Of a DNA stretch of 46,729 nt, positions 4,882-42,656 are shown piece by piece. The stretch's first letter is position 1, and the number at the start of each line of letters is the position of its first letter. The stretch lies in IMG/VR virus record IMGVR_UViG_3300030520_000040, positions 1 to 46,729 of that record; one strand, given 5' to 3'. Source of the DNA: a virus. The position numbers and the translations under genes are program-made. Below the pieces are notes generated by a model. It ran no database searches. It was not told the DNA's origin and saw nothing but the letters and a program-made list of their open reading frames with translations.

Positions 4882-4894
4882 GACGATGGCCGCC
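4882..4894 (+). promoter_or_regulatory. Putative leaderless promoter -10 (GACGAT, N7, ATG)
   Basis: GACGAT at 4882-4887 is followed by exactly seven bases and the ATG at 4895. No Shine-Dalgarno sequence precedes that ATG. The same A at position 2 and T at position 6, spaced 6-7 bases from the start codon, recur before all seven plus-strand islands. Confidence 0.45.
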
Positions 4895-4984
4895 ATGGGG
4901 CACCGGGGAAGAGCGGATCGCGCCGCGGCGGCGGCGGAGGCCGGGGTGATGGCGGCGCTGGCGAGAGCGCAGCAGGAGCCGTGA
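4895..4984 (+). CDS. 29-residue small protein, first gene of a plus-strand island
   Basis: ATG at 4895 to TGA at 4984 encodes MGHRGRADRAAAAAEAGVMA and ten further residues, an Ala/Arg-rich helix. It stands directly behind a leaderless-type -10 element and its stop overlaps the GTG of the next frame (GTGA), the same coupling seen in the other plus-strand islands. The composition gives no function. Support comes from context rather than similarity. Confidence 0.35.
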   Translation: MGHRGRADRAAAAAEAGVMAALARAQQEP

Positions 4985-5172
4985 CGCGCTGGCCGGCATG
5001 GCACCCCAGGGCCAGCCTGCACGTCTGCGGTGGCGACGACTGCCCGTACAGCAACGCCGACGATGGCGCCCATGCGCCGGAGTACGCCGAGAGCGGGCTC
5101 TGCTCGTGGGGCGGCGAGGGGTGTCAGACTTCGGGCTTGCGCTGGCGGCCTGGCCGCGTGGCGGGGTGGTGA
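4981..5172 (+). CDS. 63-residue Cys-containing small protein
   Basis: GTG at 4981 overlaps the previous stop by 4 bases. The product (VTRWPAWHPRASLHVCGGDD...) has cysteines in VCGGDDCPY and later LCSWGGEGCQTSG, which could form a small zinc-binding site. Cys-rich mini proteins of this kind occur in other plus-strand islands here. It ends just before the tRNA-like element. Function unknown; called on codon pattern, coupling and island context. Confidence 0.4.
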   Translation: MTRWPAWHPRASLHVCGGDDCPYSNADDGAHAPEYAESGLCSWGGEGCQTSGLRWRPGRVAGW

Positions 5173-5226
5173 CGCCCTTAAACGTCGCGTGCCCGCGTGG
5201 CTGCGTAGCCGCTGGCGCACCTAAGC

Positions 5227-5300
5227 GGCCGAGAGGCCAGGGTGGTTGCGGGTTCAAGTCCCGCCAGGGCCTAGGCCCTGTAGCTCAGTTGGCAGAGCAG
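5227..5300 (+). other. tRNA-like element: 3' half followed by 5' half
   Basis: 5248-5264 is a perfect T-arm (GCGGG stem, TTCAAGT loop, CCCGC), followed by CAGGGCC at 5265-5271, the 3' strand of an acceptor stem. Immediately downstream, 5274-5300 reads GGCCCTG, TA, then a D-arm (GCTC, AGTTGGCA, GAGC, A). GGCCCTG is exactly complementary to the upstream CAGGGCC. No matching 5' acceptor lies upstream of the T-arm and no T-arm lies downstream of the D-arm. I see no normal anticodon arm, so a working tRNA is not supported. It may be tandem tRNA remnants, a permuted tRNA or a recombination scar. 5173-5226 holds nothing else I can name. Confidence 0.5.
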
Positions 5301-5338
5301 CGGAAGGCGCGTTCGGGTTCGCCCGGGCGCGCTTTCCG
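5301..5338 (+). terminator. Strong hairpin at the end of the plus-strand island
   Basis: 5301-5311 pairs with 5328-5338 over 11 base pairs (one G-T), and the loop holds a second stem CGGG-TTCG-CCCG. It directly follows the D-arm-like sequence and lies between the plus-strand island and the convergent minus gene ending at 5370. No U-tract follows, so it is a terminator candidate of the actinobacterial hairpin-only kind, or an RNA-stabilising structure. Confidence 0.5.
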
Positions 5339-5369
5339 TATTCAGCCCTGCGCCACGTAGACGGCGTCC

Positions 5370-5786
5370 CTAACTGCCGCAGCAGACGCATCGGCTCTTC
5401 TCGCCGGCCGGCCAAGGCTCCAGCACGTAGGCGCGGTCAACCTTGACCAGCCCGGCGCGGCTCGGGTGCGGATCCCAGGCGATCTCCCCGCCGTCCCCGA
5501 CGACCGCATGGTCCCCGGAACCGCGCCTGGTGGACCCGACGACGATCGAGCGCCCCTGCGGGATGCCGTCCACCTGCCGCCAGTCGAGGCCCCGGCCTCG
5601 GAGCCACAGGCGGAGGGCGGGCTCCCACCATGTGAAGCTCCCGAAGTGGGCGACCGCGTCAAGGTCGAGGCCGAGCGCGGACGCGACGGACGCTTGGAGG
5701 CAGTTGCCGAGGACGCCCTTCGCCTCAAGCTCAGGGCTGTAGAGGATCGACTGGGTGACCTCGGCCGGGGCTTGCGGGAGGATCAC
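5370..5786 (-). CDS. Putative papain-like cysteine peptidase family protein
   Basis: 138 residues from GTG at 5786 (VILPQAPAEVTQ), which gives a 4-base GTGA overlap with the endolysin stop; an ATG at 5807 is possible. A conserved core is visible: GNCLQASVASALGLDL (Cys nucleophile context), W-EPALRLWLRGRGL, GDHAVVGDGG (His) and WDPHPSRAGL (Asp). Cys, His and Asp in this order fit a papain-like fold, and relatives of this short family occur in phages and bacteria. Coupling to the endolysin suggests a role in lysis or wall processing, but that is inference. Confidence 0.6.
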   Translation of the reverse strand: MILPQAPAEVTQSILYSPELEAKGVLGNCLQASVASALGLDLDAVAHFGSFTWWEPALRLWLRGRGLDWRQVDGIPQGRSIVVGSTRRGSGDHAVVGDGGEIAWDPHPSRAGLVKVDRAYVLEPWPAGEKSRCVCCGS

Positions 5787-6637
5787 GCGGCGAGGCCCGC
5801 GCCCCATGTCAGCGGGCCGACCTGGCCGTCCTGCTTGAGGCCCTTCGCCTTCTGGAACGACTCGGTGCGCGCCTTGGTGGTCTCGCCGAACGTCCCGTCC
5901 ACGCCGTCACTGCGAACCCCGGTCTTCCCGAGGTCGTACCCGTGGGCGACGAGGAGGGCCTGCCAGTTCAAGACGGCCTGCCTGTTCGTGCTACCGAGAC
6001 CGATAACGGGAATCGTTGCCATGAGTCGATCCTCCCAGGACTCGGCGGGCGGAGGCGAAGGCTTGGAGTAGGTCGCGATCCATGCGGCCATCTCGGCGGC
6101 GGTGCCGTTGTAGGCGTCCTGGTCGAGGCCGGTCTCGTCCCACTGCCACAGCCGCCAAGAGGACCAGGGGGCGACGCTCGCCGGGGCGGTCTGCGACGGC
6201 CATGCGATCCACAGCGGGTAGCCCGCACAGGACCCGAGCCCGGCCGCCACGGAGAGATCCGTGTAGCAGATGACCGGGTTCCGGCCCCCGGTGGCCGCCT
6301 TGACCGCGTCGAGGAACCCCTTCGCGTCCGCGTCGGTGACGCCCGAGTAGTCAGACACGCTGACGGCGAGCATGTCGCCCGGCTCCAGCCCTGCCGCCCG
6401 GACGACGGCGAGGAAGTGCGCGGCCTGCTCGGCCACGGCGTCCGCCCGCAGCTCGTGGTAGGCACCCCGGAACCTCCCGGCCGCCTTGATCACGTCCCAG
6501 TTCGCCGCGAAGTTCGGGTCGGAACCGTAGGCCCCGTCGGTCGCCTTCGCGAAGCAGAAGTCCAGCCCGGCCAGGTCCGCCGCGGCAAGCCGGGGCTGGT
6601 AGCTGGAGACGTCGATCCCCTGCGCGCTGTCGGTCAC
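5783..6637 (-). CDS. Endolysin, GH25 lysozyme-like with C-terminal peptidoglycan-binding domain
   Basis: 284 residues. Residues 6-190 follow the GH25 layout: GIDVSSYQ (Asp9), FCFAKATDG at 28-35, RGAYHE, a YTDLS strand near 125, and WRLWQWDETGLDQDAYNG near 161-178. Residues 208-284 form a PG_binding_1 domain (NWQALLVAHGYD to DGVDGTFGETTKA to GLKQDGQVGPLTW). It would cut the glycan backbone of host peptidoglycan. The usual catalytic D-x-E strand reads LAVSVSDYSG at 90-99, so both acidic residues seem replaced by Ser (S93, S95). It is ATGA-coupled to the membrane protein upstream. The family call is fairly secure; catalytic competence is uncertain. Confidence 0.85.
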   Translation of the reverse strand: MTDSAQGIDVSSYQPRLAAADLAGLDFCFAKATDGAYGSDPNFAANWDVIKAAGRFRGAYHELRADAVAEQAAHFLAVVRAAGLEPGDMLAVSVSDYSGVTDADAKGFLDAVKAATGGRNPVICYTDLSVAAGLGSCAGYPLWIAWPSQTAPASVAPWSSWRLWQWDETGLDQDAYNGTAAEMAAWIATYSKPSPPPAESWEDRLMATIPVIGLGSTNRQAVLNWQALLVAHGYDLGKTGVRSDGVDGTFGETTKARTESFQKAKGLKQDGQVGPLTWGAGLAA

Positions 6638-7173
6638 GGTGCCACGTCCTTCGCATCTAGCTTCGCCGAGAGGGCGCTCACTGCGGCGAGCACTTCGGCC
6701 AGGCCGCCCTCGGTGCGCGTGTCGAGCCGGTCAAGCGCGGTCGCCTGCGCGCCCTCGAGCGCGAGGATCTTGTCGTCCTGCGCGGCGAGGTGCGCGGCCT
6801 GCTCGGACTGGCCGTGCAGCAGCGCCTCAACGTCGTCGAACTGCCGCTTAGCCATCCGGTCGCTAGCCTCGGCGAGGACCGCCGACCCCACAAGGATGAT
6901 CGGAAGTAGTACCAACTGAATAAATTGGGAGCTGGCCCACTGGACGAACCCGGCCGGGCCGTTGTGCAGCGCGGCGGGAAGCCCGTAGAACGCGAGCGCG
7001 CAGAAGGCGTAAGCGCAGTACATGGTGGCCACCACGCGGGTCACCAGGACCGCCGCGCGGGTGTTGAACCGGGCGGCGGCGCTCTTGCCGGCCTGCCCGG
7101 AGGCGATCGTGGCAGGTCCCTGCTCGGCCCGGTGCTTCAGGTGCGGGTGGGGGGCATGCTCATGCAGGCTCAT
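6634..7173 (-). CDS. Holin-like membrane protein with two transmembrane segments
   Basis: 179 residues. After a His-rich N-terminus there are two hydrophobic segments, roughly residues 41-66 (VLVTRVVATMYCAYAFCALAF) and 83-101 (FIQLVLLPIILVGSAVL). A charged amphipathic tail follows (ASDRMAKRQFDDVEALLHGQ onward) that looks like coiled coil. Four-base overlap with the endolysin start and position in the lysis cassette suggest a holin or lysis regulator. This two-helix plus coiled-coil layout recurs next to actinophage endolysins. Not experimentally assignable from sequence alone. Confidence 0.6.
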   Translation of the reverse strand: MSLHEHAPHPHLKHRAEQGPATIASGQAGKSAAARFNTRAAVLVTRVVATMYCAYAFCALAFYGLPAALHNGPAGFVQWASSQFIQLVLLPIILVGSAVLAEASDRMAKRQFDDVEALLHGQSEQAAHLAAQDDKILALEGAQATALDRLDTRTEGGLAEVLAAVSALSAKLDAKDVAP

Positions 7174-8431: not shown

Positions 8432-8440
8432 GCCGCCTCC

Positions 8441-8779: not shown

Positions 8780-8837
8780 AGGCTGCCTCCCCGGGAGGGT
8801 AGATTCCGGCCATGACCACGCCAGCCGGCTGCCGGCC

Positions 8838-10727: not shown

Positions 10728-10737
10728 CAGCGCCGCC

Positions 10738-13221: not shown

Positions 13222-14604
13222 TCAGAGCCTGACGCCGGTCGGCTGCAGCTGCCGGTAGCCGCCCTCGCCGAACGTGATGGTGTTCGCGGTGCAGATGAAG
13301 GTGCCGTTCACCCCGAGGGCCCATGACCGCTGCGAGTCGGGGATGAACCGGTTCACGTAGGTGAACGTGTCGCCTGCGCGGACCCAGCCGAGGAAGTCCT
13401 CGCTGGTGTTGAAGGCGCACTTCTCGGCCGCGAACGCGTACTCCTGCCGCTCCTGCTGCGCTCTCGCCAGCGCCATCGGGGCGGTCGTCAGCGTCGTGTC
13501 GGAGATGAACTCGGCGAAGACGCCGCCGTTCGGCCCGGAGTAGGTGGCGACCGAGCTGTAGTCGGTGGCCTGCGCGACGACCGGCACCGAGTAGGAGTAC
13601 CAGCACTCGATGACGTTCCCGGCGCCGGGAGGGGCCGAGGACCACAGGAAGTACTGGCCGAACGCGTTCTGCTGGACGGACCACCCGGACGGGGACGCGG
13701 TCCCGGGCGTCACCGACGTCACGGTCTGGCTGGCGCCGCCGACCTTCAGCGTCGGCGTCCCGCTGACGGTGTAGCGGAGCGGCCATCCCTGCTGGGCCCC
13801 GTCGGCGAGCCACACGTCCGTCGCGGGCCCCGACGTGGGCTGCGCGATCGTCTGAGTGCTGCCCTGGACGAGGACCTTGTTGTGGACCGCCGTCCCGTCC
13901 CACTCGTAGTTGTTCGTGTTGTCGAGCAGCATGTGACCTTGGGTGGTCGATCCGCCGACGGTGGGGGTGGTGGTGAACGTGACCCCGGAGTCGACCGCCG
14001 TGGACGCGTCGAAAAAGTGGAGCCGCCGGTACTCGTCGACGTACCACCCGTACGGGGTCGACGCGCCGGCCAAGGTCGCCAGTTTCCGCCACGCGTCCGA
14101 CAGCGACCCGTAGTTCAGGATCAGGTTCGGCAGGACCGGGCCCGGGGCGACGAACCCGCCGTCGGCGACCTTCGCCGCGCTGATCCCGCAGTTCGCCTGG
14201 GCGGTCAGGTCGACGATCACCTGGTCGGCGGTCAGCCCGTTGAACACCCCGTGCACGATCGCGTTGTCCGCGTAGAACGTGAAATCCGTGCAGTTGAGCG
14301 TCCACTCGTTCCGCGTCGGGCCCGTCGGGCTCAGGTTCGGGTCGTTGACCACCCCGGCGAACAGCGTCTTACCGCAGTTCCCGTCGTACAGCGACACGAG
14401 GGTCATCGGCTCGACGTACGCGAGGTTGGGCGACCCTGAGTACTCGTCGACCAGCGGGAACGAGGCCGTGTCGCCCTGGCGGCCGAAGTTCTGCGTGATC
14501 GTGAAATCGTTGCTGTGACCCTCGTAGGCGAGCAGGGACTGGTACTGGGCCGGCGACCCGCCCGGCGGCGTGAGGGTGAGGGTCAGGTCCGGGCTGGCGA
14601 CCAC
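13222..14604 (-). CDS. Tail hub / baseplate protein following the tape measure
   Basis: 460 residues from GTG 14604 (VASPDLTLTLTPPGG). It has the character of gp27/Tal-type hub proteins: beta-barrel sections (FTITQNFGRQGDTASFPLVDEY, EWTLNCTDFTFYADNAIVHG), a helical segment with ISAAKVADGGFVAPG and SDAWRKLATLAGASTPYGWYVD, and a C-terminal beta domain ending GGYRQLQPTGVRL. It comes directly after the tape measure gene (22-base gap), where distal tail or hub proteins normally sit. No peptidase motif is evident. Exact hub versus distal-tail role is not resolved. Confidence 0.7.
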   Translation of the reverse strand: MVASPDLTLTLTPPGGSPAQYQSLLAYEGHSNDFTITQNFGRQGDTASFPLVDEYSGSPNLAYVEPMTLVSLYDGNCGKTLFAGVVNDPNLSPTGPTRNEWTLNCTDFTFYADNAIVHGVFNGLTADQVIVDLTAQANCGISAAKVADGGFVAPGPVLPNLILNYGSLSDAWRKLATLAGASTPYGWYVDEYRRLHFFDASTAVDSGVTFTTTPTVGGSTTQGHMLLDNTNNYEWDGTAVHNKVLVQGSTQTIAQPTSGPATDVWLADGAQQGWPLRYTVSGTPTLKVGGASQTVTSVTPGTASPSGWSVQQNAFGQYFLWSSAPPGAGNVIECWYSYSVPVVAQATDYSSVATYSGPNGGVFAEFISDTTLTTAPMALARAQQERQEYAFAAEKCAFNTSEDFLGWVRAGDTFTYVNRFIPDSQRSWALGVNGTFICTANTITFGEGGYRQLQPTGVRL

Positions 14605-14626
14605 GCGGACCCCCTCGCCCGGCGCG

Positions 14627-17600
14627 TCACGGCATCCTCACCTTCACGCCGGCCTGCGCGAGCGACTTGGTCACGGCGGGCCCTAGCTTCCGCACGAGGT
14701 TGTTGATGTCGCTGTCGCTCATGACGGTGTTGTCGTGGACGTCGATGACGATCGTCGCCGAGCCGGAGGATGCCCCGGAGGACGCGGTGAGCCCCAGGCC
14801 GAGGGCGCCGGCGCCTGAGCCGCCCGCGTGGGCGAGAGACGCCGACGAGGCGAGCAGGTGAGACGCCGCGGTGACGTCCCCACGCCCGGCGACGATGCCC
14901 TTCGCGAGGCTCCGGGCGATCGACCGCCCGGAGTACGACGGGTCGCCGCTGCCGCTCAGCGGGCCGCGTTTGGCCGGGCTGAAGGGCAGGAAGGAGGTGA
15001 TGGTCGAGGCGACCGAGCTCATGGTGGAGCCGAGGCTGCCGAGCATGTTCTCGACGCCGCGGATCAGCCCTTGGATGACCTTCTCGCCGGCCCCGAACAG
15101 CAGGGATCCCAGGTCGCCCAGGGCGGACAGGATCCGCCCTGGTAGGCCAGCGACGAAGCCGATCATCCGGTCCTCCGCGGAGTGGACGGCGTCGGTGGCG
15201 TCGTCCCACCAGCCGCGGAAGAGCGAGGCCAGCCGGCCGAACCAGGACAGGACCGACTTCACGTCGTCGATGTCAGTCCTGATCAGCGATTTCACGTACG
15301 ACCAGGCGGCGCCGACGATCTTCATGATGAGGGCGTGGGCGGCCCGGATGTCGCCGGTTATGTCGGACCAGACCGCCCGGACGAACCCGGTGATCCCGGA
15401 CCAGGCGGCCTTCGCCCCGGAGACGATCGCGCCCCACACGGCGACCGCGGCCTTCTCGATGTCCCGCCAGTACTTGACGATCAGCAGCACGGCGGCGATG
15501 ACGGCGAGGACGATCAGGCCGATGCCGAGGAGCATGGCGGCGTTCGCGGCGATCCACGCCGCCATGGTGACCGCGGCCCCGGCGACGTTGGACGCGACGA
15601 TCACCGCGACCTTGGCCACCGTCTGCGCCACCCAGACCGCGGCGCCGGCGGCCTGCTGCGCGCCGGCCGCGACCCACGCGCCCGCGGTCGCCGCGGCCCC
15701 GGCGACGTTGCTCGCGACGACAGAGGCGACCTTGACCGCCTGCTGGGCGACCCAGCTGGCAGCCGAGGCGACCCCGGACGCGGCGGCGGTCGCCCACGCG
15801 CCGATCGTCGTCGCGGCCGACGCGACCCAGGACCCGGACGACTCGACGGCCGCCTCGTCGTTCGCCGCGGCGACCTCGGCCGCGTCCTCCTCGGCCGCCG
15901 CAGCCCCCTCGGCGGAGGACGCCTCCTGCTTCGCGGCCATCCACGCGTACTTGTCGGCGGACTCCTCGGCCGCGTCCTCGTTCGCGGCGGCGACCTCCGC
16001 GGCGTCGCCCTCCATCGCCGCCGACGCCTCCGCCGACGACGACTCCTGCGCGTCCGCGGCCGACTTCGCCGAGGCGGCCTGCGTGCCCGCGGTCTCCTTC
16101 GACATCAGCCCGAGGGCCTTCAGGGTCGCCTTGACGGTGTTCACGGCCCCGGAGACGGCGTCGAACGCCTTCTTCGCGACCGCGATGATCGCGATCACGG
16201 CGGCGATCGCGGTCACCGACACGAAGATGACCTCGGTGAGGGTCTTGTGCTTCGCGGTCCACTCGGCGATCGGGATGACGACCTTCGTGATGGCCGACAG
16301 GACGGAGGTGACGGCGGGCAGCAGGGCGGTGCCGATCGCGATCCCGGTGTTCTCGATCCCGGTCTTCGCCTGCGCGACCTTGAAGTTGAAAGTCCCCTGG
16401 ATCGTCGACCAGCCCTGGACGTTGCCGCTGGCGTCCTTCGCCTTCGCCGCGATCGCCGCGGTGTTCTTCGTCAGGTCGCCCATGTGCTTGCCGGACAGCA
16501 TCAGGGCCACGTTCAGGCCGGTCGCGCCGCCCACCATCTTCGACATGGCCTGCGTGTAGGTCTGCTTCAGGCCGGTCGCGCTCGTCGCCGACGACTTGAA
16601 CATGGTGATCAGGTGGGCCTGCTCGGGGTTGAGCCCCTTCACCGCCGTCGTCAGCGCCCCGGTGGTGATGGACCCGGAGAGGATCTGGTTCGCGAGCGAC
16701 TGCGCGGCCGGGGACATCTCCTTCAGGTAGCCGAGCATCACCGAGCCGCCGGAGGTGTTCCGCAGGATCGCGTTCCGCATCTCGTCGATCGTCCCGGCCA
16801 GCCCGGTCTTGCCGAGATTCGCCGACAGGGCGTTCGCGTTCAGGCCGAGCGCCTTCATCTCGTTCGAGCTGACGAGGGTGGGGGCCTGCATCGAGCGGAT
16901 GAAGTGCGCGAGGTCCTGCGTTGTCTGCTGGGCGCTCATGCCCTGCGCGGTCATCGTCGCGATCGCGCCGCCGACCTGGGCGAACGAGACGTGCGCGGCG
17001 GCGGCGACCGGGGTGACGGCGGACAGCGAGGACGCGAGGTCTTGCATCCGCATGTCACCGCTGCCGACCGTCTCCACCAGCTGGTTCATCAGGCTGGTCG
17101 AGTCCTTCGTCGCCTGCGAGGCGGTCAGCGACGTCCCGTAGTAGGCGGTCATGGTGCCGACGAGGGCCTTGGACGTGGTGTCGAGGTCGGCGCCGCCGAC
17201 CCGCGCGCCCTCAGCGGCCGTCTTCAGGATCGCCAGGCCCGTGGCGGCGTGGAACCCCGACGACTCGATGTGGTACATCGCGTTCGTGATGTCGGAGGCG
17301 CTCTGCCCGGTCGCCGTCGACACGCTCAGGATCCCGGCCTGCACCATGGCTAGGTTCTTCGCGGACTCCCCCGCGTCCGTCACCAGGTGAGTCGTGCTGT
17401 CCTGGAAGTTCCCCGCCGCCTTGACCATGACGGCGGCGGCCACGCCGAGGCCGAGGGCGGTGATCCCGGCGGCCCTGCCCGCAGTGGACAGGAGCTTCGA
17501 GGACGCCGCCGCCTTGTCGGCCGCGTCCTTCTGGGCGGCGGCCTCCTCGGCGGCGGCGGCGGCGGCCTCGGTGTCCGACGCGGCGACGGCCTTCTGCACG

Positions 17601-20905: not shown

Positions 20906-20911
20906 GATACT
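20906..20911 (+). promoter_or_regulatory. Putative leaderless promoter -10 (GATACT, N6, GTG)
   Basis: GATACT is followed by six bases and GTG at 20918. TTGCAG at 20880-20885 could act as a -35 element, though the 20-base spacer is long. No Shine-Dalgarno sequence precedes the start. Confidence 0.5.
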
Positions 20912-22423: not shown

Positions 22424-22427
22424 GACC

Positions 22428-25214: not shown

Positions 25215-25220
25215 TAGCAT
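25215..25220 (+). promoter_or_regulatory. Putative leaderless promoter -10 (TAGCAT, N7, ATG)
   Basis: TAGCAT, close to the actinobacterial -10 consensus, is followed by seven bases and ATG 25228. No ribosome binding site is present. Confidence 0.5.
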
Positions 25221-30956: not shown

Positions 30957-30962
30957 TACAGT
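30957..30962 (+). promoter_or_regulatory. Putative leaderless promoter -10 (TACAGT, N6, ATG)
   Basis: TACAGT is followed by six bases and ATG 30969. No ribosome site separates them. It lies in the 31-base divergent gap to the scaffold GTG. Confidence 0.5.
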
Positions 30963-30968: not shown

Positions 30969-31178
30969 ATGAGCGGCAACGGACTTGACGACCTCAAGCG
31001 GGTAATCGGCAGGCTGCGATGGGCGCTGGCCGGGCTGAACCTTGCGGTCGTCTTCCTCGGCGGGGCGGTGACCTATGCCGGCGTGAGGACCGGCCATCCT
31101 GTGCTCGCGGGGGCGTGCGCCTTGCTGAGCGCGGCGACCTTGGCGGCGCTTCCGATCGCCTGGAGGAAGACGCGATGA
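30969..31178 (+). CDS. Small two-helix membrane protein
   Basis: 69 residues from ATG 30969 (MSGNGLDDLKRVIGRLRWAL). Two hydrophobic segments are visible, LAGLNLAVVFLGGAVTYAG and VLAGACALLSAATLAALPI, with a basic end WRKTR. Leaderless-type start and ATGA coupling to the next gene. A membrane-acting moron product (for example superinfection exclusion) is conceivable but unproven. Confidence 0.65.
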   Translation: MSGNGLDDLKRVIGRLRWALAGLNLAVVFLGGAVTYAGVRTGHPVLAGACALLSAATLAALPIAWRKTR

Positions 31179-31510
31179 GTGATGCGCTGGTCGGCGACGA
31201 GGAGTTCCGAAAGCGATTCGAGTTGGCCAAGGCGCGGTGCCTCGTCGGCCACGGGGCGGGGTGCTTCTACGGCGGACTGGCCCCGAGCGCCGGCCGCTGG
31301 CTCTCCGTCGCCGGGTGCCTGTGGGATCACGGCGATGCGTGCGCCGCCTGCGGATGCGACGGCGCCGCAGTGTTCCAGGGTTGGCACGCCGGGGTCTCCC
31401 CGATGGAGAGAGGCACAGTTAGCGGGCTGATCTGGGGCGTGACGCTGTGCGCCGCGTGCAGGGACCGCGAGATGGCGCGGAACCCGGAGTGGCGTGTATC
31501 TGCGACCTGA
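31175..31510 (+). CDS. Cys-rich unknown protein, putative zinc binder
   Basis: ATG 31175 overlaps the previous stop (ATGA). 111 residues: an N-terminal helix EEFRKRFELAKARCLVGHGA, then GCLWDHGDACAACGCDGAAV and a C-terminal TLCAACRDREMARNPEW. The CxxC pairs (CAAC, CAAC) with further Cys/His could bind one or two zinc ions. I do not recognise the family. 31511-31600 downstream holds nothing further that I can identify. Confidence 0.65.
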   Translation: MSDALVGDEEFRKRFELAKARCLVGHGAGCFYGGLAPSAGRWLSVAGCLWDHGDACAACGCDGAAVFQGWHAGVSPMERGTVSGLIWGVTLCAACRDREMARNPEWRVSAT

Positions 31511-31600: not shown

Positions 31601-32173
31601 TCAGACGGCGCGCGACGGGCGTCTGCGGGCTATCCCCTGCGGCGACCAGCCGGTGATGAGCCCGCGCTGGTACAGATCCCAGGCCCTCGGCGAGAGGACG
31701 GCGCCCAGCAGCCAGTCGCCCTTGTTGACGACGATGCCGTTCCCGAGGTCCCACGGCTGGTCCGGGCGGTAGATATACGACTCGACCACCGTCGCCGTCG
31801 CTTCGCCGTCGCCGTCCGTCTCGGTGCCGTCAAGGTGGAACATCCCGACGCGCGGCCCGTTGGCGAGGAACTCCCAGGCCGATTTTTCAAGATCGGCCGC
31901 GTCCAGGAAATCCCTGCCGCCGTCCTGGCCCCTGGCGATGCTCGGCGCCGGCCCGGCCTGGTAGGCGATGCCGAGGCAGTACCTCTGCGGCTCCGCGCCC
32001 TTCAGGATCTCCGCCTCATCATCCCCGGGCTCCCAGGTGACGTCCGCGAGGATGTTCCCGGCGGGCTCCTCGCTCTCGGCGGGGGGCGGTGCCTGCTCGG
32101 CGAGGATCTCGGCGACGATCTTGCGGAGCTCGTCTCGCAGCGAGTCCGGGTCGATGTTCAACAGCACGGCCAC
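31601..32173 (-). CDS. Prohead serine protease, XkdF-like
   Basis: 190 residues from GTG 32173 with a full GGAGGTGAT site 4 bases upstream; the longer frame to 32497 is antisense to an island. The C-terminal 120 residues follow the XkdF (S78-like) layout: DLEKSAWEFLANGPRVGMFH (candidate His), TATVVESYIYRPDQPWD, NKGDWLLGAVLSPRAWDLYQ and GLITGWSPQG, where the family has GxxTGFS-x-x-G with the Ser nucleophile. It would cleave scaffold and perhaps portal/capsid tails. It lies upstream of the scaffold gene, separated by a plus-strand island. Confidence 0.78.
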   Translation of the reverse strand: MAVLLNIDPDSLRDELRKIVAEILAEQAPPPAESEEPAGNILADVTWEPGDDEAEILKGAEPQRYCLGIAYQAGPAPSIARGQDGGRDFLDAADLEKSAWEFLANGPRVGMFHLDGTETDGDGEATATVVESYIYRPDQPWDLGNGIVVNKGDWLLGAVLSPRAWDLYQRGLITGWSPQGIARRRPSRAV

Positions 32174-32187: not shown

Positions 32188-32193
32188 GAGAAT
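32188..32193 (+). promoter_or_regulatory. Putative leaderless promoter -10 (GAGAAT, N6, GTG)
   Basis: GAGAAT is followed by six bases and GTG 32200. The 26-base gap to the divergent protease GTG also contains that gene's ribosome site, so the two signals overlap on opposite strands. Confidence 0.45.
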
Positions 32194-32199: not shown

Positions 32200-32442
32200 G
32201 TGAGCGAAGAAAACATCGAGTGGACCGTGACCATCGACGGCGGCGACATCGAGGTCCGCCGACCGTCCCCGTACTGCGCCGAGCACCCGTGGGGCTTCCG
32301 GGGCGAGATCCGCGCCGACGTGATCGCGATGGTGACGCCGGGAAAGCTGGCGGAGCTGCAGGCGAACATGGTGGCCGAGTTGAAAGGGCAGCTAGTGGAC
32401 GCTGAGGCGAAGCTCGACCATTGCACGCAGTGCAAGCCGTGA
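32200..32442 (+). CDS. Unknown 80-residue island protein
   Basis: GTG 32200 (VSEENIEWTVTIDGGDIEVR) to TGA 32442. A short beta N-terminus, then PSPYCAEHPWGFRGEIRADV and a C-terminal helix LAELQANMVAELKGQLVDAE ending CTQCKP. Possible zinc site with CAEH and CTQC. First of a five-gene island in which every stop overlaps the next start. Confidence 0.65.
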   Translation: MSEENIEWTVTIDGGDIEVRRPSPYCAEHPWGFRGEIRADVIAMVTPGKLAELQANMVAELKGQLVDAEAKLDHCTQCKP

Positions 32443-32744
32443 GCGGAGACGAGCTAGTCCCGTTCGACGTCGGCCCGGACTGCCAGCCGTCCGGCAATCC
32501 GTTCCGGGATCTGATCCCGCGCGGCCCCGTGCGGGAGGCGAACCCGCACCGGGTGGGCGCCTGCCCTGACTGCGGCAGCTACCGGACGGACGGCAGGCCG
32601 CCGTACATCCACAAGGACGACTGCCCGCGCGAGGGAGACCTGCAACTCGACCGCTGGCTAGCCGAGCAGGAGACGGGCGACCACGGCGGCGCGGTGCTGT
32701 ACTGCGCGGAGCATGATCACGTCATCGAGGGGCTCGGAAGATGA
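32439..32744 (+). CDS. Unknown zinc-finger-like island protein, 101 residues
   Basis: GTG 32439 overlaps the previous stop. It reads VSGDELVPFDVGPDCQPSGN, then VGACPDCGSYRTDG, YIHKDDCPREGD and a C-terminal AVLYCAEHDHVIEGL. CPDC with downstream His/Cys resembles a small zinc ribbon. No known family recognised. Confidence 0.65.
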   Translation: MSGDELVPFDVGPDCQPSGNPFRDLIPRGPVREANPHRVGACPDCGSYRTDGRPPYIHKDDCPREGDLQLDRWLAEQETGDHGGAVLYCAEHDHVIEGLGR

Positions 32745-33196
32745 GCGGCGCGGATGAACTTGCGACCTGGCTGCGCAAGGCGGTCGAGGAGCGCCGGGCG
32801 CTCGCCTGGAACGCGATAATCGTCGAAAGCGACCTGCACGTCGGGGACGTCACCATTCCGGCGGCGGAGCCGCCCGCGTGCTCGCCGGGCTGGCGGGAGC
32901 AGTCCAGCGGGGTCCTCGTCACCGGAGAGGGCACCGAAGACGACGCGTGGTACGGCACCTGGGCGACGGGAGACTCAAGGCTCACCCGGCTCATCGCGGC
33001 GAACGACCCGAGAGACACGATCGCCCGGTGCGAGGCGGAGCTTGCGATCCTGGACGATCACGGCAGTGACGGCGAGCGGAAGTACCCGGAGTGCCGCTGC
33101 TGCGGAGTGGGGGCGTTCCCGTGCCGTACCGTCCGCCTGATCGGGCGCGGCTACAGGCACCGACCCGGTTATCGGGAAGCGGAGTGGAAGCCGTGA
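32741..33196 (+). CDS. DUF6221-like protein
   Basis: 151 residues from ATG 32741 (ATGA overlap). N-terminal ADELATWLRKAVEERRALAW, core LIAANDPRDTIARCEAELAI and C-terminal YRHRPGYREAEWKP follow the DUF6221 pattern. Extra CRCCGVGAFPC near residue 120 adds a Cys cluster. Third copy of this family in the window. Confidence 0.75.
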   Translation: MSGADELATWLRKAVEERRALAWNAIIVESDLHVGDVTIPAAEPPACSPGWREQSSGVLVTGEGTEDDAWYGTWATGDSRLTRLIAANDPRDTIARCEAELAILDDHGSDGERKYPECRCCGVGAFPCRTVRLIGRGYRHRPGYREAEWKP

Positions 33197-33519
33197 GCGA
33201 CGAGCTGACGGCGTGGCTGCGCGCCGAGATCGAGGCGGACGGGAAGTCGGCCGCCGTGCGCCTCCGTCGCCAGATGTCCGACGACTACAGGCGCGTGCAG
33301 ATGGAGAAGCTGGCCCGCGCGAAGGCGGAACTCGCGATCCTGGACCTGTGCGAACGGCAGGCCGCGAAGTCCGGCGAGAACGCCATGGAGGAAGACCGGG
33401 CGTGGGCGCTCGACCCGGTTGTGCGCCTGCTCGCCTTCGGCTACCGGCGGCGCGAGGGCTGCCCGGAGTCCGAAGACGACCTGCGGAACTTCTACTTCCT
33501 CCAGACGGAGGGGCAGTGA
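33193..33519 (+). CDS. DUF6221-related protein, diverged
   Basis: 108 residues from GTG 33193 (VSDELTAWLRAEIEADGKSA). The N-terminal ELTAWLRAEIEAD and RAKAELAILDLCERQ echo the neighbouring paralog, and the C-terminal VVRLLAFGYRRREGCPESED occupies the place of the usual HPxYxxxW tail, which is missing. GTGA coupling on both sides. Function unknown. Confidence 0.65.
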   Translation: MSDELTAWLRAEIEADGKSAAVRLRRQMSDDYRRVQMEKLARAKAELAILDLCERQAAKSGENAMEEDRAWALDPVVRLLAFGYRRREGCPESEDDLRNFYFLQTEGQ

Positions 33520-33884
33520 GCGACGATCCCGCGGACTGGGTGCGCCAGCTCCGCGACAGCATCCGAGTCGACCCCGATGTGCCGCCAGGGCTTCTGATCG
33601 TGGAGTCCGGCCCTGAACGGCTAGCGCGCTGGGGCGGCCATCCCGGCGGCCTGGTGACCGACGCGCTCTGGGAAGACCTGCAATCGTGGATGGAGTCGTT
33701 TCCGTACACCATCCGGCTGGGCGAGCGCGGCCAGCCGATCGTCTGCGAGGTCTGCGGAACGCTCGTCGCGCTCACCCCGGAGGCAAGCGGGGCGCGCGCT
33801 CCGTGGAAGCCGGGCATCTGGGAGTACGAGACGTACCGCAGGCACACCCAGCGGAGGTGCGAGTGGAAGAGGGCGAACCCTTGA
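33516..33884 (+). CDS. Unknown 122-residue island protein
   Basis: GTG 33516 overlaps the previous stop. N-terminal DDPADWVRQLRDSIRVDPDV may be a distant relative of the DUF6221 N-terminus; later parts include VCEVCGTLVALTPEASGARA and YETYRRHTQRRCEWKRA. CEVC and the terminal H...C could form a zinc knuckle. Last gene of the island, converging on the minus gene ending at 33889. Confidence 0.6.
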   Translation: MSDDPADWVRQLRDSIRVDPDVPPGLLIVESGPERLARWGGHPGGLVTDALWEDLQSWMESFPYTIRLGERGQPIVCEVCGTLVALTPEASGARAPWKPGIWEYETYRRHTQRRCEWKRANP

Positions 33885-36386: not shown

Positions 36387-36392
36387 GATAAT
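36387..36392 (+). promoter_or_regulatory. Putative leaderless promoter -10 (GATAAT, N7, ATG)
   Basis: GATAAT is followed by seven bases and the ATG at 36400. The nearer in-frame ATG at 36391 overlaps the -10 itself, so the hexamer argues for 36400 as the true start. Confidence 0.55.
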
Positions 36393-36399: not shown

Positions 36400-36924
36400 A
36401 TGACCGACAGCCCCGCCGAACTTCCCCCGGCCGCTCCCGCCGCATTCAACGGCTCCGCGCACGGCTCCCCGACTCCCGCGCAGCAGACCGCCCAGGCAGC
36501 CGCCGCGATAGCCGGGATGCTGCCGCAGCTCCCGCAGGCCATCGCCGGGGTTCTGCAGCAGGTTCTCCAGCAGGTGCCTATCCAGACCCGCCAGCACCTG
36601 TGCGCCCAGTGCGTCGTCGCCCGGATGGGCTGGCAGATGCTCCACGAGCGGGACATCAAGATCGCGCTCGCGAAGGCGGCGCAGGCGCACGGCCTCGAGC
36701 TCGCGGACGGCGACCCGCGCCTCGCCCAGCTCGACCCCGCGCCGTTCCTGCCCGAGCGGCTGCAACTCGGCGGGGCGGAGGGAATGCCGCCCCTGACCGT
36801 CGCCGTCACCATGGTCGGCGGCACCGAAGTGTGCTCCGAGCACATCCCTAACCGGCCCGGCGGGCAGAAGCTCCTGATCGCAAGCACGGCGCTCACGCCG
36901 TCCATGCTGGCCGGGATCGGTTAG
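36400..36924 (+). CDS. Unknown 174-residue plus-strand island protein
   Basis: Starts MTDSPAELPPAAPAAFNGSA at ATG 36400 (leaderless-type). After a low-complexity N-terminus there is a helix AAAIAGMLPQLPQAIAGVLQ, then QHLCAQCVVARMGWQMLHER with a CxxC, and a C-terminal beta part MPPLTVAVTMVGGTEVCSEH. CAQC and CSEH may form one zinc site. It converges on the next minus gene with a 4-base overlap of stop codons. No family recognised. Confidence 0.65.
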   Translation: MTDSPAELPPAAPAAFNGSAHGSPTPAQQTAQAAAAIAGMLPQLPQAIAGVLQQVLQQVPIQTRQHLCAQCVVARMGWQMLHERDIKIALAKAAQAHGLELADGDPRLAQLDPAPFLPERLQLGGAEGMPPLTVAVTMVGGTEVCSEHIPNRPGGQKLLIASTALTPSMLAGIG

Positions 36925-37286: not shown

Positions 37287-37323
37287 CAGGGTTACCTCCT
37301 TGGCTGGCGCCGGCTGTTGTCGG

Positions 37324-40300
37324 CTAGGCGCCGAGCGGGGACGAGGGGATCACTGCGCAGCGCCCGATGCACCCGCCGGGATGGGCGGGTGGCATGACGT
37401 CGCCGGACTGATAGGGCTCGCCCATCAGCACCGGGCCCTGCGCGGCGTTGGCGAGGCAGACCGGGCAGACTTTTTGATCTTCCGCTGTGGTCCAGATTCC
37501 CCAGGCCACGCTGTTCTGCATGTAGTAGTCGTGCGCGGAGAGCCCGGTGTAGATGTTGATCTGCGTCCCGACGAGCGTCACGGCGGTGTCCTCGTCGGCG
37601 AGGGCGTCCGACAGCAGGTCCCCGAGCTCGTCGAGGGTGTCCTGCGAGTCCGCCCAGTTCGCGTCGGCCCCGGCCAGGATGATCGCGAGCGCCCTGGCGT
37701 AGCCTGCGGCGATCCGCTCCGCGACCGCCTCGGCCGCGGCCTCGCTCTCCCCTTCGCCGCGCAGCAGCGCGTACAGGACCGCGAGGAGACCGGCCTCCCC
37801 GACCATGCTCAGCGCGCCGTCGGTGTCGCCGGGCGACTGCTTCGGCGGGGCCTGCCCGGTGACCGCGTTCGCGGCGGAGATAGCCCCGATCGCGTAGCCG
37901 TCGACCGCGATCGCCTCGGCGGACGACGCAGCGACGAGGGTGATGCCCTGCCGTGCGAGCCATGCCGCTATCCACGCCTCGGCAGCCTTGTTCCGGTCCC
38001 GCTTGCCCGGGGCCTTCCCGTCCTGCTCCGGATGGTCGGCGAGGTAGTCCCGGCCCATGTCGCGGGCTTTCGCCTTCGGGATGGCGGCCTTAACGGAGTC
38101 GCGGACCTTCGGGGCCCAGTGCGCGGCCGTCTTCTGGTCTAGCTTCCATCCGTGCCACGCTGGCGCTTTTGGGCCCGAGCCACCTGCCTTGGCGATGCCG
38201 GCGTGCCGGTGAATGGGAGCGTCCTCGTCGAGCCCGCAGGCGGCGCACGCGACGTGACACCCCTCGGCCGCGAACGGGTGCGGGACGTCCTGCGCGTCTC
38301 CGGACGTGCCGTCGATGCCGGCCCGCTGCCGCGCCCTCTCGCCGCGCTCGAGCCAGTCCATGCAGGCGCCGTTGTCGTCCAGGTCGCCGCCGCAGTCCGG
38401 GCAGAACGCGCACTTGGCGACGCTCTCCGGCTCGGCGATCGCGTCGTCCGTCGCGTCGTAGCCGAGCGCGGCCATGACGTCGTCGATCGAGGCGAGCAGT
38501 TCGGGGCGCACCGCCGGGTTGCCGGGAATCGTCTCCGGATCCCACCATGCGATCGCTTCCGCCTGGTCCCCGTCGGGGTCGTCCGGGTTGGCGATCATGC
38601 TGTCCGAGCGCACGGGCACCATCGCCTCGCGCTCGACCGTCCACACGATGCCCTGGTAGATCCCGGATGCCCACGACCCGGTCTGCACGCCGGGGGCGCA
38701 CGGGGATCCTGTTTCCTCCTGCCATTCCCGCCAAGCGGCCGCGAGAGGAGACTCGTCGCCCTCGAGGTGACCGCCGGGAAACTCCCACATGCCCGCTGCC
38801 GGGTCGCTGTCGTCGAGCGCCCGCTGCAGCATGAGCACGCGCCCGGTGTCTGCGGCGAGGACCGCGAGGCCTGCGACCGCGACTCCCCCGGCGTCCTTGC
38901 GGACGGCGAGCCGGCCGGAGTCGTTGAGGTTGTGGCCCGCGACCTTGGCGACTGCGCGGAACTCGAAGTCCCGCCACTCGCCCGACCGCCTGCGCGCCCT
39001 GCTGTAGCGGCGGAACGCCTGCATCTCCTTGGCGACCGTCGCCTGGTCGACCGGGCCGTCATCATCGTCCTCGCCGCCACCCCTGCCGTCGAGATCGTAG
39101 GAGTACAGGCCCGTGGCCGCGGTGATGCCCGCAGTGACGTTTCCGGCTGGGGCCGCGCCCTCGCCTTCCTTGGCGACCGGTGCAGCCGCAGGGGCTGGCG
39201 CGGAAGCCGGGGGCGGCGGCGGACTCGGCGTGACGGGCGCCGATGCCGCTGCGGCCGCCGCGGCAGCCGCAGCCGGGTCAGCTTCCGGCCCGTACTGCTG
39301 CACCGCGAGGCCCGGGACCTTGACCGGCGGGTTCGGCAGAACGCCCTCGACCGCGGCGAACGCCTTGTGGGGCAGCTGCGCGTTCTCGGCCGGTGCGGCG
39401 GTAGCCGGGTCGATCGGGCCGGCGACGGCGAGCATCGCCGACAGGGGGATCGGGCCGGACCGCTCGGTCCACAGAAACCGGGGGACCGGTTCGGGGTCGG
39501 TGATCCCGAACCGCCATTCGCGGACCTCGCTCGAGCTGACGGTGCCGTTCTTGACGTAGATGTCGTCGGACTGCGCCTGGTTGAGGCGGTCGTCCTGCTC
39601 CTCGCCGAGGTCGAACGAGAACTTCAGCGGAAGCTGCAGGTCTTCCTGCAGGAAGTCGGTCAGGATCTCCTGGATGTGCATGGCCATCGGGAGGTCGCCG
39701 ACGCGGTGCTGGACGTCGGCCTGCGACTCGCCGCTGGACTTGTTCACGCTCTCGGTGAATCCCAGGTCAGATGGCACAATCGAATACGCCGAGCAGTTTC
39801 CGACCCACGCCGGGCGCCCATTTCGGCGCACGTAGATCACGCCGTTCGGCACCGAGACGCAGTAGACCATGCCCTCGTAGGGCGTCACTTGGCCGTGGGC
39901 GGTGCGCAGCGGACTGGTCCGCTCGCGGACGATCCACGTCGGCTTGCAGTTGGTGACCAGCTTGCCCCGGATCACGCCGCCGTCGGACGGCTTGCGCGGG
40001 GAGACCGAGGCGTCGCGACCGCACTTCTGGAGGATCTCCTGCCAGTCGTCGGCGAGGCGCTGGCTGGCGGTGAGCATGTGCCACGACTTGCCGAGGTAGT
40101 GGTGGCCGTCGCCCTTGCATGCCCACGCCCAGAGAATCTCCAGCATCTCAGGGCTGAGATCCTTTATGTCCTCGGGGATGTACTTGCCGAACGAGTTCCC
40201 GAGCGGCACGAGGTATGCGTGGAGACGCATGTCCTGGCAGACCCAGTCTGCGGTGTTCCGGCACCAGTTGAAGGGCAGCGAGTCGAGGAGTTCCTGCATC

Positions 40301-41877
40301 TCGCCGAAGTACGGCGAGTCGGCGGCCTGACTGATGCCGACCTTGTAGGTCCGGGTCGGAGCGTACTTGCCATTGCCCGGCTGGAGGCGAGCGCCACCTT
40401 TACTGCCGCCAACGTGACCCTCGGCCAGCCACAGCCCGAGGAAGGCGACCCAGGTCTTCATCGGGATGACGAGTTCCGGACGCGTGACCGTGGTGAACGT
40501 GCCCTTCGGGCCCCTGTCCCGCTGCGTGTACGAGACGGCGGGAAGCACGAAGTTCTCCGGCGACCGGCCTTCCCAACTCGACCGCATGGGGATCATGTAG
40601 CCGCCCTTGCCGACGATCTCCCCGGCGGTCTTGATGAACTCCTTCGGGCGGGGGTGCTTCTTCGTCGGGAAGTAGGTCAGCAGCATCCGGTGATCCGGCG
40701 TGACGAGCAGGTCAAGGCTGTTCGACTTGAACGCCACCATGTCGCCGTTGTACGGCTCGGCGATGTGGTCGGTGGGCTTCTGCCACTCGAAACGGCCGTC
40801 CGCGCTGCGCGTTGCGACCTCGTCGCCGTCGGCGAGCTTCGGGAAACCCACCCACCCGCGGCGGGTCAGGATCTCGGTCTGCTCGTCGAGGCATGTCTTC
40901 CGCATAAGGAAGAGACTAAAGGCGTCGGTGAAGTCCTTCTCGTTCGTCCACGCCAGCTTCGACCCGCTCGGGATCCAGCGGATCTGGTGCTTCCTGGTCT
41001 GGTCGCCGAGCATGAACGCGTCCCAGTACTCCTGGAACTGCTCGATCTGGTCCGGGGACCAGGTGTCCGGCGAGCTCGCGAACCCTGCCGGCAGGTTTCC
41101 CGAGGTAAAACGTTCCAAAAAGTACAGTTGGAACCTTATGTCCGTATTTGCGTTAAGAAGGATGTCCTCGAGCGGGGCCGTCCCATAGAGACTGTCGTCC
41201 TGCGGGTCGTACGGCTCGTAGATCAGGTCCGAGCGAGTCAGCCAGTTCCACGGCAGCCCCTGCACGTACTGCACGTAGGCGGGCGCCGGGTCGTCGGGCG
41301 GGTTGCCCCAGTAGTCCTGCAGCGGGGCGATCATCGTGCCGTCGACCACCGACAGGCCGACGGCGCGGCCGGCCCGGTTCCGCATCCGGTACAGGGTCCC
41401 GGCGTCGTAGGACAGCACGCCACGCAGGTACTTCGACAGCCACGGCTTGAACAGCGTCTTGGTGTCGGGCCGCTTCAGGACGCGTTTGCCCTCCGCCACC
41501 TCGGCGGAGATGTCACCCTCCCAGCCGTCGGCCGCGACCAGCTTCCAGTCGAGGCTCCGCAGGCTGGCGATCCTGTGACGGATGCAGATGCGCGCTACGT
41601 CATAGGAGCCGATCAGGCCCTTGAGCGTCGAGAACGCGACGGCCTCGTGCGTCCTGGGCCGCGCCGAGATGTTGTAGCCGGCGACGAAGTCATGCGACCG
41701 CGGGGTCCGGCTGAACCCGTCGTACGGGCCGATCGGCTCACCGGGCGAGAACGGGCTCGTCGGCGTCATCTGCGCGCGCGCCTCGGCCGCCTCGATCTGC
41801 AGCGGGACGCCCGTGCCGAACCCCTTGGAGACCGGGGCGGGACGCTCGGCGAGGGCGGCGCGGGATCGGAGCGTCAT
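37324..41877 (-). CDS. Portal protein fused to Nudix and MuF domains, containing an intein
   Basis: 1517 residues from ATG 41877. Residues 1-328 plus 695-860 are the portal (YNISARPRTHEAVAFSTLKG, NTDIRFQLYFLERFTSGNLP, then CSAYSIVPSDLGFTESVNKS), forming the dodecameric DNA gate. Residues 329-694 are an intein. After an Ala/Pro linker, residues ~995-1135 form a Nudix domain with GGHLEGDESPLAAAWREWQEETG, a complete G-x5-E-x7-R-E-x2-E-E-x-G box. Residues 1156-1225 hold Cys clusters (CAFCPDCGG; CHVACAACG). The C-terminus is MuF/SPP1 gp7-like, ending TTAEDQKVCPVCLANAAQ and PPAHPGGCIGRCAVI. Portal-MuF fusions are known in actinophages; the Nudix insertion is unusual. The extein is about 1151 residues. 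Confidence 0.88.
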   Translation of the reverse strand: MTLRSRAALAERPAPVSKGFGTGVPLQIEAAEARAQMTPTSPFSPGEPIGPYDGFSRTPRSHDFVAGYNISARPRTHEAVAFSTLKGLIGSYDVARICIRHRIASLRSLDWKLVAADGWEGDISAEVAEGKRVLKRPDTKTLFKPWLSKYLRGVLSYDAGTLYRMRNRAGRAVGLSVVDGTMIAPLQDYWGNPPDDPAPAYVQYVQGLPWNWLTRSDLIYEPYDPQDDSLYGTAPLEDILLNANTDIRFQLYFLERFTSGNLPAGFASSPDTWSPDQIEQFQEYWDAFMLGDQTRKHQIRWIPSGSKLAWTNEKDFTDAFSLFLMRKTCLDEQTEILTRRGWVGFPKLADGDEVATRSADGRFEWQKPTDHIAEPYNGDMVAFKSNSLDLLVTPDHRMLLTYFPTKKHPRPKEFIKTAGEIVGKGGYMIPMRSSWEGRSPENFVLPAVSYTQRDRGPKGTFTTVTRPELVIPMKTWVAFLGLWLAEGHVGGSKGGARLQPGNGKYAPTRTYKVGISQAADSPYFGEMQELLDSLPFNWCRNTADWVCQDMRLHAYLVPLGNSFGKYIPEDIKDLSPEMLEILWAWACKGDGHHYLGKSWHMLTASQRLADDWQEILQKCGRDASVSPRKPSDGGVIRGKLVTNCKPTWIVRERTSPLRTAHGQVTPYEGMVYCVSVPNGVIYVRRNGRPAWVGNCSAYSIVPSDLGFTESVNKSSGESQADVQHRVGDLPMAMHIQEILTDFLQEDLQLPLKFSFDLGEEQDDRLNQAQSDDIYVKNGTVSSSEVREWRFGITDPEPVPRFLWTERSGPIPLSAMLAVAGPIDPATAAPAENAQLPHKAFAAVEGVLPNPPVKVPGLAVQQYGPEADPAAAAAAAAAASAPVTPSPPPPPASAPAPAAAPVAKEGEGAAPAGNVTAGITAATGLYSYDLDGRGGGEDDDDGPVDQATVAKEMQAFRRYSRARRRSGEWRDFEFRAVAKVAGHNLNDSGRLAVRKDAGGVAVAGLAVLAADTGRVLMLQRALDDSDPAAGMWEFPGGHLEGDESPLAAAWREWQEETGSPCAPGVQTGSWASGIYQGIVWTVEREAMVPVRSDSMIANPDDPDGDQAEAIAWWDPETIPGNPAVRPELLASIDDVMAALGYDATDDAIAEPESVAKCAFCPDCGGDLDDNGACMDWLERGERARQRAGIDGTSGDAQDVPHPFAAEGCHVACAACGLDEDAPIHRHAGIAKAGGSGPKAPAWHGWKLDQKTAAHWAPKVRDSVKAAIPKAKARDMGRDYLADHPEQDGKAPGKRDRNKAAEAWIAAWLARQGITLVAASSAEAIAVDGYAIGAISAANAVTGQAPPKQSPGDTDGALSMVGEAGLLAVLYALLRGEGESEAAAEAVAERIAAGYARALAIILAGADANWADSQDTLDELGDLLSDALADEDTAVTLVGTQINIYTGLSAHDYYMQNSVAWGIWTTAEDQKVCPVCLANAAQGPVLMGEPYQSGDVMPPAHPGGCIGRCAVIPSSPLGA
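39796..40893 (-). mobile_element. Intein with LAGLIDADG homing endonuclease inside the portal gene
   Basis: 366 residues, Cys329 to Asn694, followed by Cys+1 (695). Block A is CLDEQTEILTRRGWVGFPKL and block B SLDLLVTPDHRMLL. The two LAGLIDADG-type helices are FLGLWLAEGHV (479-489) and LWAWACKGDGHHY (582-594). Block F is GMVYCVSVPNGVIYVRRNGR and block G WVGNC. The residue before the terminal Asn is Gly rather than the common His. Removing it joins LFLMRKT to CSAYSIVPS, a continuous portal motif. Confidence 0.9.
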
Positions 41878-41893
41878 GCCGGGCGCCTCCCGC

Positions 41894-42172
41894 TCAGGTC
41901 GCCGGCGGCTTCCAGCCGAGCGCTATCAGCGCCTCGCGGGTCTCGTCCGGGATCTTCACGTCCGCCGCCCCCTGGGCGAGCAGCAGCCGCAGGGCGCCCG
42001 CGCCCATCAGGGTCAGCGTCACCACGGGGATGCCGTCAGCCGGCGCGTGGACGTCGAAGCCGGTGACAGCCCCGGCCGGGTGGCCGCCGATCCTCAGCTC
42101 GCCGTCGAACGGCCACGTGCCCGAGTACTCGAACGTCGGCGGGACGCTGTCCGGGGCCTCGGCGTCTGCCAC
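41894..42172 (-). CDS. Small conserved actinophage-type protein, 92 residues
   Basis: GTG 42172 (VADAEAPDSVPPTFEYSGTW) with GGGGAG just upstream. Contains TWPFDGELRIGGHPAGAVTG and FDVHAPADGIPVVTLTLMGA, a short beta unit, then ADVKIPDETREALIALGWKP, an ending often found in small proteins next to terminase and portal. It precedes the portal by 16 bases. Function unknown. Confidence 0.65.
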   Translation of the reverse strand: MADAEAPDSVPPTFEYSGTWPFDGELRIGGHPAGAVTGFDVHAPADGIPVVTLTLMGAGALRLLLAQGAADVKIPDETREALIALGWKPPAT

Positions 42173-42193
42173 GGCTCCCCTCTCGGCTTGCGG

Positions 42194-42199
42194 GATGAT
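42194..42199 (+). promoter_or_regulatory. Putative leaderless promoter -10 (GATGAT, N7, ATG)
   Basis: GATGAT is followed by seven bases and ATG 42207. Same geometry as the other six islands. Confidence 0.45.
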
Positions 42200-42206
42200 G
42201 GGGCGC

Positions 42207-42656
42207 ATGGGAATCGTGCAGTCGCTCGAATGCGACGGGTGCGGGACGCGGGCAGGCACGCCCGGTGACCCGGTGACCATCCTGGCCGGGTGGCGGATCT
42301 TCGACTTCAGGCCGGTCCCGAGCGAGCCGCAGCGCAAGGCCGGGCCGCTCGCCGCGTGCCCTGCATGCTGGGCGGGGAAGACGTGCGCGGAACTGCTGGG
42401 GGAAACGTGGGCGTTCCTCGCAAGATCCGGGGCGTTACCGCGACTGGCGGAACATCGCGGTCCGGGCCTGCCTGAGAGCGGCGGCCGGGTCGAGAGGAAC
42501 CGCAGGGGCTTCCGGCTCCGGCTCGGGGTCGGCTTCGGCGAGCTCGCGCACACGACGGCGGGCCAAGGCGAGGCTTTCCGTCTCGGCCGCCACGGCGAGC
42601 GCTTTACGGCGGGCCCAGTCGATCCAACTCTGCGCGCCGCCGCCGAGGTTAATTAG
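42207..42656 (+). CDS. Zinc-finger-like island protein overlapping the terminase 3' end
   Basis: ATG 42207 (MGIVQSLECDGCGTRAGTPG). Residues 1-75 look real: CDGC and later CPACWAGKTCAELLGETW form a zinc ribbon. After residue ~78 the frame runs antisense to the large terminase for about 220 bases and becomes Arg/Gly-rich, so either the gene really overlaps or its native stop was lost by an indel. Convergent orientation. Function unknown. Confidence 0.5.
   Translation: MGIVQSLECDGCGTRAGTPGDPVTILAGWRIFDFRPVPSEPQRKAGPLAACPACWAGKTCAELLGETWAFLARSGALPRLAEHRGPGLPESGGRVERNRRGFRLRLGVGFGELAHTTAGQGEAFRLGRHGERFTAGPVDPTLRAAAEVN

Follow-up and report, generated by a model that had tools for sequence, protein, structure and literature searches.

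Predicted leaderless promoters at the heads of antisense gene islands in the virion operon of a probable actinophage family

The window analysed here, a virus record of 46.7 kb taken at its full length, has a GC content of approximately 71%. Its late operon lies on the minus strand and includes genes for the terminase (terL, 42435-44042), the portal protein (37324-41877), an XkdF-type protease (31601-32173), the tape measure protein (14627-18241) and an endolysin (5783-6637). A conserved phage protein encoded on the same strand (27128-28618) has a homologue annotated as the major capsid protein in Arthrobacter phages. Both an intein-like Hint segment and a NUDIX domain lie within the portal protein. 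No phage matched the window in a Megablast search. The nearest isolated phages by major capsid protein are the Arthrobacter phages Mufasa8 and Sonali (38-40% identity), whose divergence from the window precludes comparison at the DNA level. Relatives of the capsid protein are found on contigs of Streptomyces and Kitasatospora and in a Catenulispora MAG, and the host of this phage is therefore very probably a member of a Streptomycetaceae-like group. An integrase is encoded in 9/16 related records and in none of the genes of the window itself. The tetranucleotide CTAG is depleted across the window (29 observed, 126 expected by base composition).

Plus-strand genes interrupt the late operon. The sequence-only reading described seven such islands, each opened by a hexamer with A at position 2 and T at position 6, placed 6 or 7 bases before an ATG or GTG. 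All seven hexamers are present with these spacings; as gene heads, four of the sites are well supported (20918, 25228, 32200 and 36400), one is plausible (30969) and two are doubtful (4895 and 42207). The four supported starts were each called exactly by our own gene caller, which is based on codon usage and is blind to upstream sequence.

Island 2 (20918-22883) follows the hexamer GATACT (20906-20911, N6 before GTG 20918) and occupies the junction upstream of late gene 19871-20854. It contains five genes: 20918-21361 and 21349-21777, both encoding DUF6221 proteins, 21765-22217, 22247-22423 and 22428-22883. Island 3 (25228-25623), a single gene upstream of late gene 24197-25186, is preceded by TAGCAT (25215-25220, N7 before ATG 25228), and its gene family is found at the same junction in loci L071, L073, L094, L100, L124 and L147. 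Island 4 (30969-31510) lies upstream of late gene 28718-30937 and behind TACAGT (30957-30962, N6 before ATG 30969). It consists of an ORF of 69 amino acids coupled through ATGA to one of 111 amino acids (31175-31510); its coding score is weak, and 30969 is a plausible gene head. Island 5 (32200-33884) lies upstream of the late protease gene and is opened by GAGAAT (32188-32193, N6 before GTG 32200), 15 bp from the divergent protease start codon. Its five genes are 32200-32442, 32439-32744, 32741-33196 (DUF6221), 33184-33519 (DUF6221-like) and 33516-33884. Island 6 (36400-36924) is a single gene of 174 amino acids behind GATAAT (36387-36392, N7 before ATG 36400); the protein is 99% identical in L073, where the promoter is identical, and the island stop codon overlaps that of the convergent late gene (TTAG). 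As had been proposed, following genes are coupled: most overlap the preceding gene by 4 or 13 bases.

Behind GATGAT (42194-42199, N7 before ATG 42207), the ORF at 42207-42656 has a coding score near background and a 3' half antisense to terL, and is doubtful as a protein gene. Similar promoter geometry occurs at the terminase junction of L002-L004, with an ORF behind it that is unrelated to that of the window. The hexamer GACGAT (4882-4887, N7 before ATG 4895) is probably no island head. Its frame spans only 29 codons with a coding score below zero and is non-coding, and a Y-RNA-like RNA, the likely real content of the adjoining stretch, replaces the protein reading of island 1.

This candidate RNA gene (YrlA-type, permuted tRNA-like) lies on the plus strand at 5190-5340, ends approximate, and comprises a T-arm, an acceptor-like hairpin, a D-arm and a GC-rich hairpin. 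The stretch has a fold z of -3.7, and within 5243-5299 the acceptor-like strands pair with each other. Positions 5243-5299 match Rfam RF02553 (YrlA) with 46.1 bits, below the gathering threshold of 69; since this model also rings in control genomes, the assignment as a Y RNA is a lead. A tandem-tRNA reading is unlikely, as ARAGORN finds no tRNA there. The same layout occurs in L171 (about 4440-4560) and in L081 (minus strand, 465-644), where it lies 3' of a DUF6221 island. In relative G001 a TROVE (Ro60) gene flanks two such RNAs, and relative G010 also encodes a Ro60/TROVE protein near such RNAs. A different structured RNA of 95-116 nt, which has a tRNA T-arm and is closed by a variable 11-bp terminal stem, immediately precedes the first gene of the island adjoining the 24197-type late gene in L073, L094, L100 and L147, and is itself preceded by TANNNT at N5-6; the L147 copy gives a weak tRNA-Sec match (27.4 bits, below gathering).

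Among the called genes of the window, an A-N3-T separated from the start by 6 or 7 nt is found at 4/4 island heads versus 1/42 minus-strand genes (Fisher p=3e-5). The latter is the background count that the sequence-only reading had proposed, and the geometry is thus not general among minus-strand genes. Its claim that Shine-Dalgarno (SD) sequences are missing also held: none of the four called heads has one, versus 71% of closely spaced internal island genes.

To place these heads in a wider setting, 150 viral loci were gathered by terminase and capsid, and approximately 30 more, some of them identical contigs, were added later by other late genes; the records may be fragments. Counts for the capsid clade refer to 101 related loci with duplicates removed. 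A-N3-T at 6 or 7 nt before the start occurs at 35/63 distinct island heads versus 2/64 divergent late heads and, among internal genes, at 36/1014 late and 4/63 island ones (p=3e-29 for the excess of island heads over late genes). The peak in the capsid clade is sharp, at 11 and 12 nt only, and is confined to island heads. Grouped by head protein cluster, the geometry is found at the predicted start in 16/31 clusters (24 if alternative starts are allowed) versus 8/210 control clusters; many heads and loci are homologous and some clusters are remote DUF6221 homologues, so that these counts are only partly independent. The later-added contigs show the geometry at the predicted start of 9/16 heads (duplicates still included). 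SD sequences precede 21% of island heads versus 57% of late internal genes, and are found at 53% of late heads. When alternative in-frame starts are allowed, 76% of island heads have the geometry and about one quarter still do not: the leaderless head rule is not universal across islands.

Among host and early phage genes a leaderless start is nothing unusual; islands have it more often, and late genes hardly ever. In four relatives that were read whole, the geometry was present at 14/20 island heads and 14/38 non-late divergent phage genes, and in 400 kb sampled from a Streptomyces chromosome it was present at 28/126 (22%) divergent genes. Chromosomal DUF6221 genes of Streptomyces and its relatives have it in only 1/41 cases, which excludes a trait of the DUF6221 family; the promoter type therefore belongs to the island and not to the gene family. 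Upstream of the same late gene families, antisense promoter-like sites were found in 11% of cases without an island versus 37% with one. The early region of G003 (14125-15034 and 63181-63662) contains repeated TAGGCT-N6-start heads, a T-first leaderless class distinct from that of the islands.

The footprint of the promoter is clearest at the junction upstream of late gene 19871-20854: across ten heads, G-14, G-13, A-11, T-7 and G-6 (counted from the start codon) are invariant while positions -10, -9 and -8 vary. The invariant positions are the standard sigma-70-type positions. Given this pattern and the position-specific enrichment, the island heads are very likely leaderless promoters of a host-sigma type. 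The sequence-only reading had invoked the actinobacterial TANNNT leaderless signal. Its leaderless part is borne out by the 11/12-nt peak, the conserved A-11, T-7 and G-14, the general lack of SD sequences and the host group, but the motif is nearer to ANNNT with an extended -10. TANNNT alone was rejected because most heads start with G or C, and the island motif reads G-14...[G/C]-A-N3-T-G. T at hexamer position 1 is found in 5/35 islands, versus 19/34 non-late phage genes and 16/28 host genes (p=0.0004 and 0.0005); G-14 is found in 30/35, 13/34 and 15/28, respectively (p=6e-5 and 0.01). Six distinct heads added later agree (G-14 in 6/6, G-6 in 6/6, T at position 1 in 0/6). Upstream of island heads, no excess of a -35 element over shuffled sequence was detected. 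We read the island promoter as a putative extended -10, -35-less housekeeping promoter.

These features resemble known actinobacterial leaderless promoters of the TANNNT/ANNNT type (PMC3160421, PMC8914203, PMC8079986) in the A-11 and T-7 positions, the N6-7 spacing to ATG or GTG and the lack of an SD sequence. In Streptomyces griseus, the -10 element is ANNNT at 87.7% of transcription start sites (PMC8914203). In S. lividans, the hexamer lies on average 6.3 nt from the start site, and leaderless transcripts make up 17% of the total (PMC8079986). The islands differ from the leaderless promoters of S. lividans, which have T at position 1 in 63.8% of cases and a TTGAC-type -35 (PMC8079986), and the rarity of T at this position is odd for a standard HrdB promoter.

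Islands sit tightly within the operon. The distance from the island start to the divergent late start codon is at least 26 bp (median 87 bp) and often 26-45 bp. At the convergent end, the gap is 10 bp or less in 47/67 cases, too tight to accommodate an island terminator easily, and a 4-bp stop overlap (mostly CTAG or TTAG) is found at 18/56 distinct island ends versus 6/63 host convergent pairs. Comparison of relatives, another check proposed with the original description, shows that the presence of whole islands varies: what a fixed junction holds differs between relatives, many of which have nothing there. An island is found in 7/60 loci at the junction upstream of 28718-30937, between it and the 31601-32173 gene, and in 5/11 at that between late genes 22906 and 19871. 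The view of islands as separate cargo modules antisense to the late genes is upheld by this swapping of contents, and because of it the islands appear to be exchangeable, moron-like accessory modules. Their expression would be independent of the late operon. L072 contains a very large antisense island of 11 genes (1943-6829), headed by a DUF559/Vsr-like endonuclease gene with an SD-type start.

Taken together, we consider it likely that the islands are exchangeable antisense accessory modules within the virion operon, each with a compact leaderless promoter. The -10 element, G-14 N [G/C] A-11 N3 T-7 G-6, is apparent in the sequence 6 or 7 bp before the first ATG or GTG, usually with no SD and no detectable -35. 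By analogy with known promoters of the host, a HrdB-type housekeeping sigma factor would read this extended -10 and the RNA would start on the start codon. Ribosomes would then initiate at the 5'-terminal AUG or GUG, as established biology would predict; in mycobacteria, an ATG or GTG at the 5' end is necessary and sufficient (PMC4633059). Downstream island genes would be translated by re-initiation at overlapping, often SD-led starts. Because the late operon runs the opposite way through the island, late and island transcription would interfere, and islands would be expressed mainly while late genes are silent, in lysogeny or early infection. The link to lysogeny is indirect, since islands are nearly lacking, over the stretch read, from the known prophage relatives in Streptomyces and Kitasatospora. 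With no 5' UTR, and a stop codon often common to the next late gene, the cargo would fit with almost no spare DNA and would leave the SD of the late gene undisturbed.

The departure of the island -10 from other leaderless promoters invites a further reading, which we regard as tentative and rather unlikely: that the island promoters are a class of their own, leaderless, with an extended -10 but neither a T at -12 nor a -35, and mark a coordinated accessory regulon in which cargo is swapped behind a standard minimal promoter inside the leader of the neighbouring virion gene. If so, the virion operon would be lined with interchangeable sockets. A little less probable still is a dedicated regulon in which recognition or control of this -10 class (G-14, non-T at -12, G-6) would lie with an alternative host sigma factor, a phage activator or a repressor common to all island heads. 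The frequencies of T at position 1 and of G-14, which differ from those of early-phage and host leaderless -10 elements, would fit such control, but the conserved positions are all ordinary sigma-70-type contacts (extended -10, A-11, T-7 and discriminator), and no operator or -35 common to the window junctions was seen by eye. Sigma70_r4 exceeds the cut-off in only 2/16 records and is absent from the window, and a phage-encoded sigma factor was rejected on this ground as the general reader.

The close spacing of divergent starts bears on the improbable alternative of bidirectional promoters, in which the symmetric A-N3-T core would drive the divergent late gene as well, so that late transcription would resume beyond each island. 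A-N3-T is identical on either strand, the distance between island and late start codons is often only 26-45 bp, and late heads have a broad excess of A-N3-T at 20-25 nt, the same sites viewed from the other strand. However, symmetry is a property of the pattern and is no evidence in itself, and at short gaps the core is too near the late start to leave space for a functional SD leader (about 9 nt at 32173), while SDs are retained at late heads (53%).

With respect to cargo, DUF6221 is recurrent: the window contains four copies, one of them just below the Pfam cut-off. This functionally uncharacterised family is common on Streptomyces chromosomes, and a search with the DUF6221 protein against phages gave no matches. 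Pfam assigns island proteins to DUF6221, HNH and other uninformative families, and PADLOC gave no matches among 64 island protein families. AlphaFold models of DUF6221 and of the 25228 family are of low confidence (mean pLDDT 66 and 73, pTM 0.58 and 0.49). Prophage-expressed accessory genes in other systems often have an anti-phage or anti-host role, and the sequence-only reading had suggested action on the host or on rival phages. As PADLOC and Pfam yield no defence genes, a defence or weapon role is unsupported; with a chromosomal family as the recurrent cargo and two low-confidence models, we give the weapon reading a low probability.

It is very improbable that the islands are instead expressed as leadered transcripts from promoters further upstream, with an incidental A-N3-T. 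The structured RNA that directly precedes island 3 on the same strand in some relatives would suit such a leader, but most heads lack an SD, the enrichment is position-specific with conserved positions, and at the many heads located 26-45 bp from a divergent late start codon a leader could hardly fit without entering the late gene. The counts refute chance, and likewise a choice of start codons by the earlier reader: two of the seven noted sites are indeed weak gene heads, but with the upstream-blind caller the geometry is found at 4/4 heads in the window and at 35/63 in relatives (p=3e-29), and later contigs agree.

Antisense leaderless genes in a virion operon have already been described. 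In the Cluster O mycobacteriophages (Corndog and others), as many as four groups of small genes on the opposite strand interrupt this operon, and promoter PL2 is predicted to be SigA-like and leaderless, with +1 on the start codon (PMC4351075). The islands share the antisense small genes and the predicted leaderless start. The SigA-like calls in Cluster O came from a -35/-10 search, whereas the islands have no detected -35, an extended -10 and mostly no T at position 1. Unlike in Cluster O, DUF6221 cargo recurs and the geometry is found at many junctions across the family; this family-wide grammar is the new part. The islands also resemble the morons of temperate phages, variable extras between conserved genes that are often self-expressed in the lysogen (PMC7067206), in being variable between conserved phage genes and, as predicted, having their own promoter. 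They differ in being multi-gene, antisense and leaderless, often with a stop codon common to the convergent late gene.

The geometry provides a simple sequence rule to find and correctly start accessory genes of actinophages, which may escape SD-reliant gene callers, and indicates sites at which prophages may hold genes that serve outside lytic growth. A coupling is also predicted: island transcription would oppose late transcription, and leaderless starts, requiring no leader, would allow cargo to fit between virion genes.
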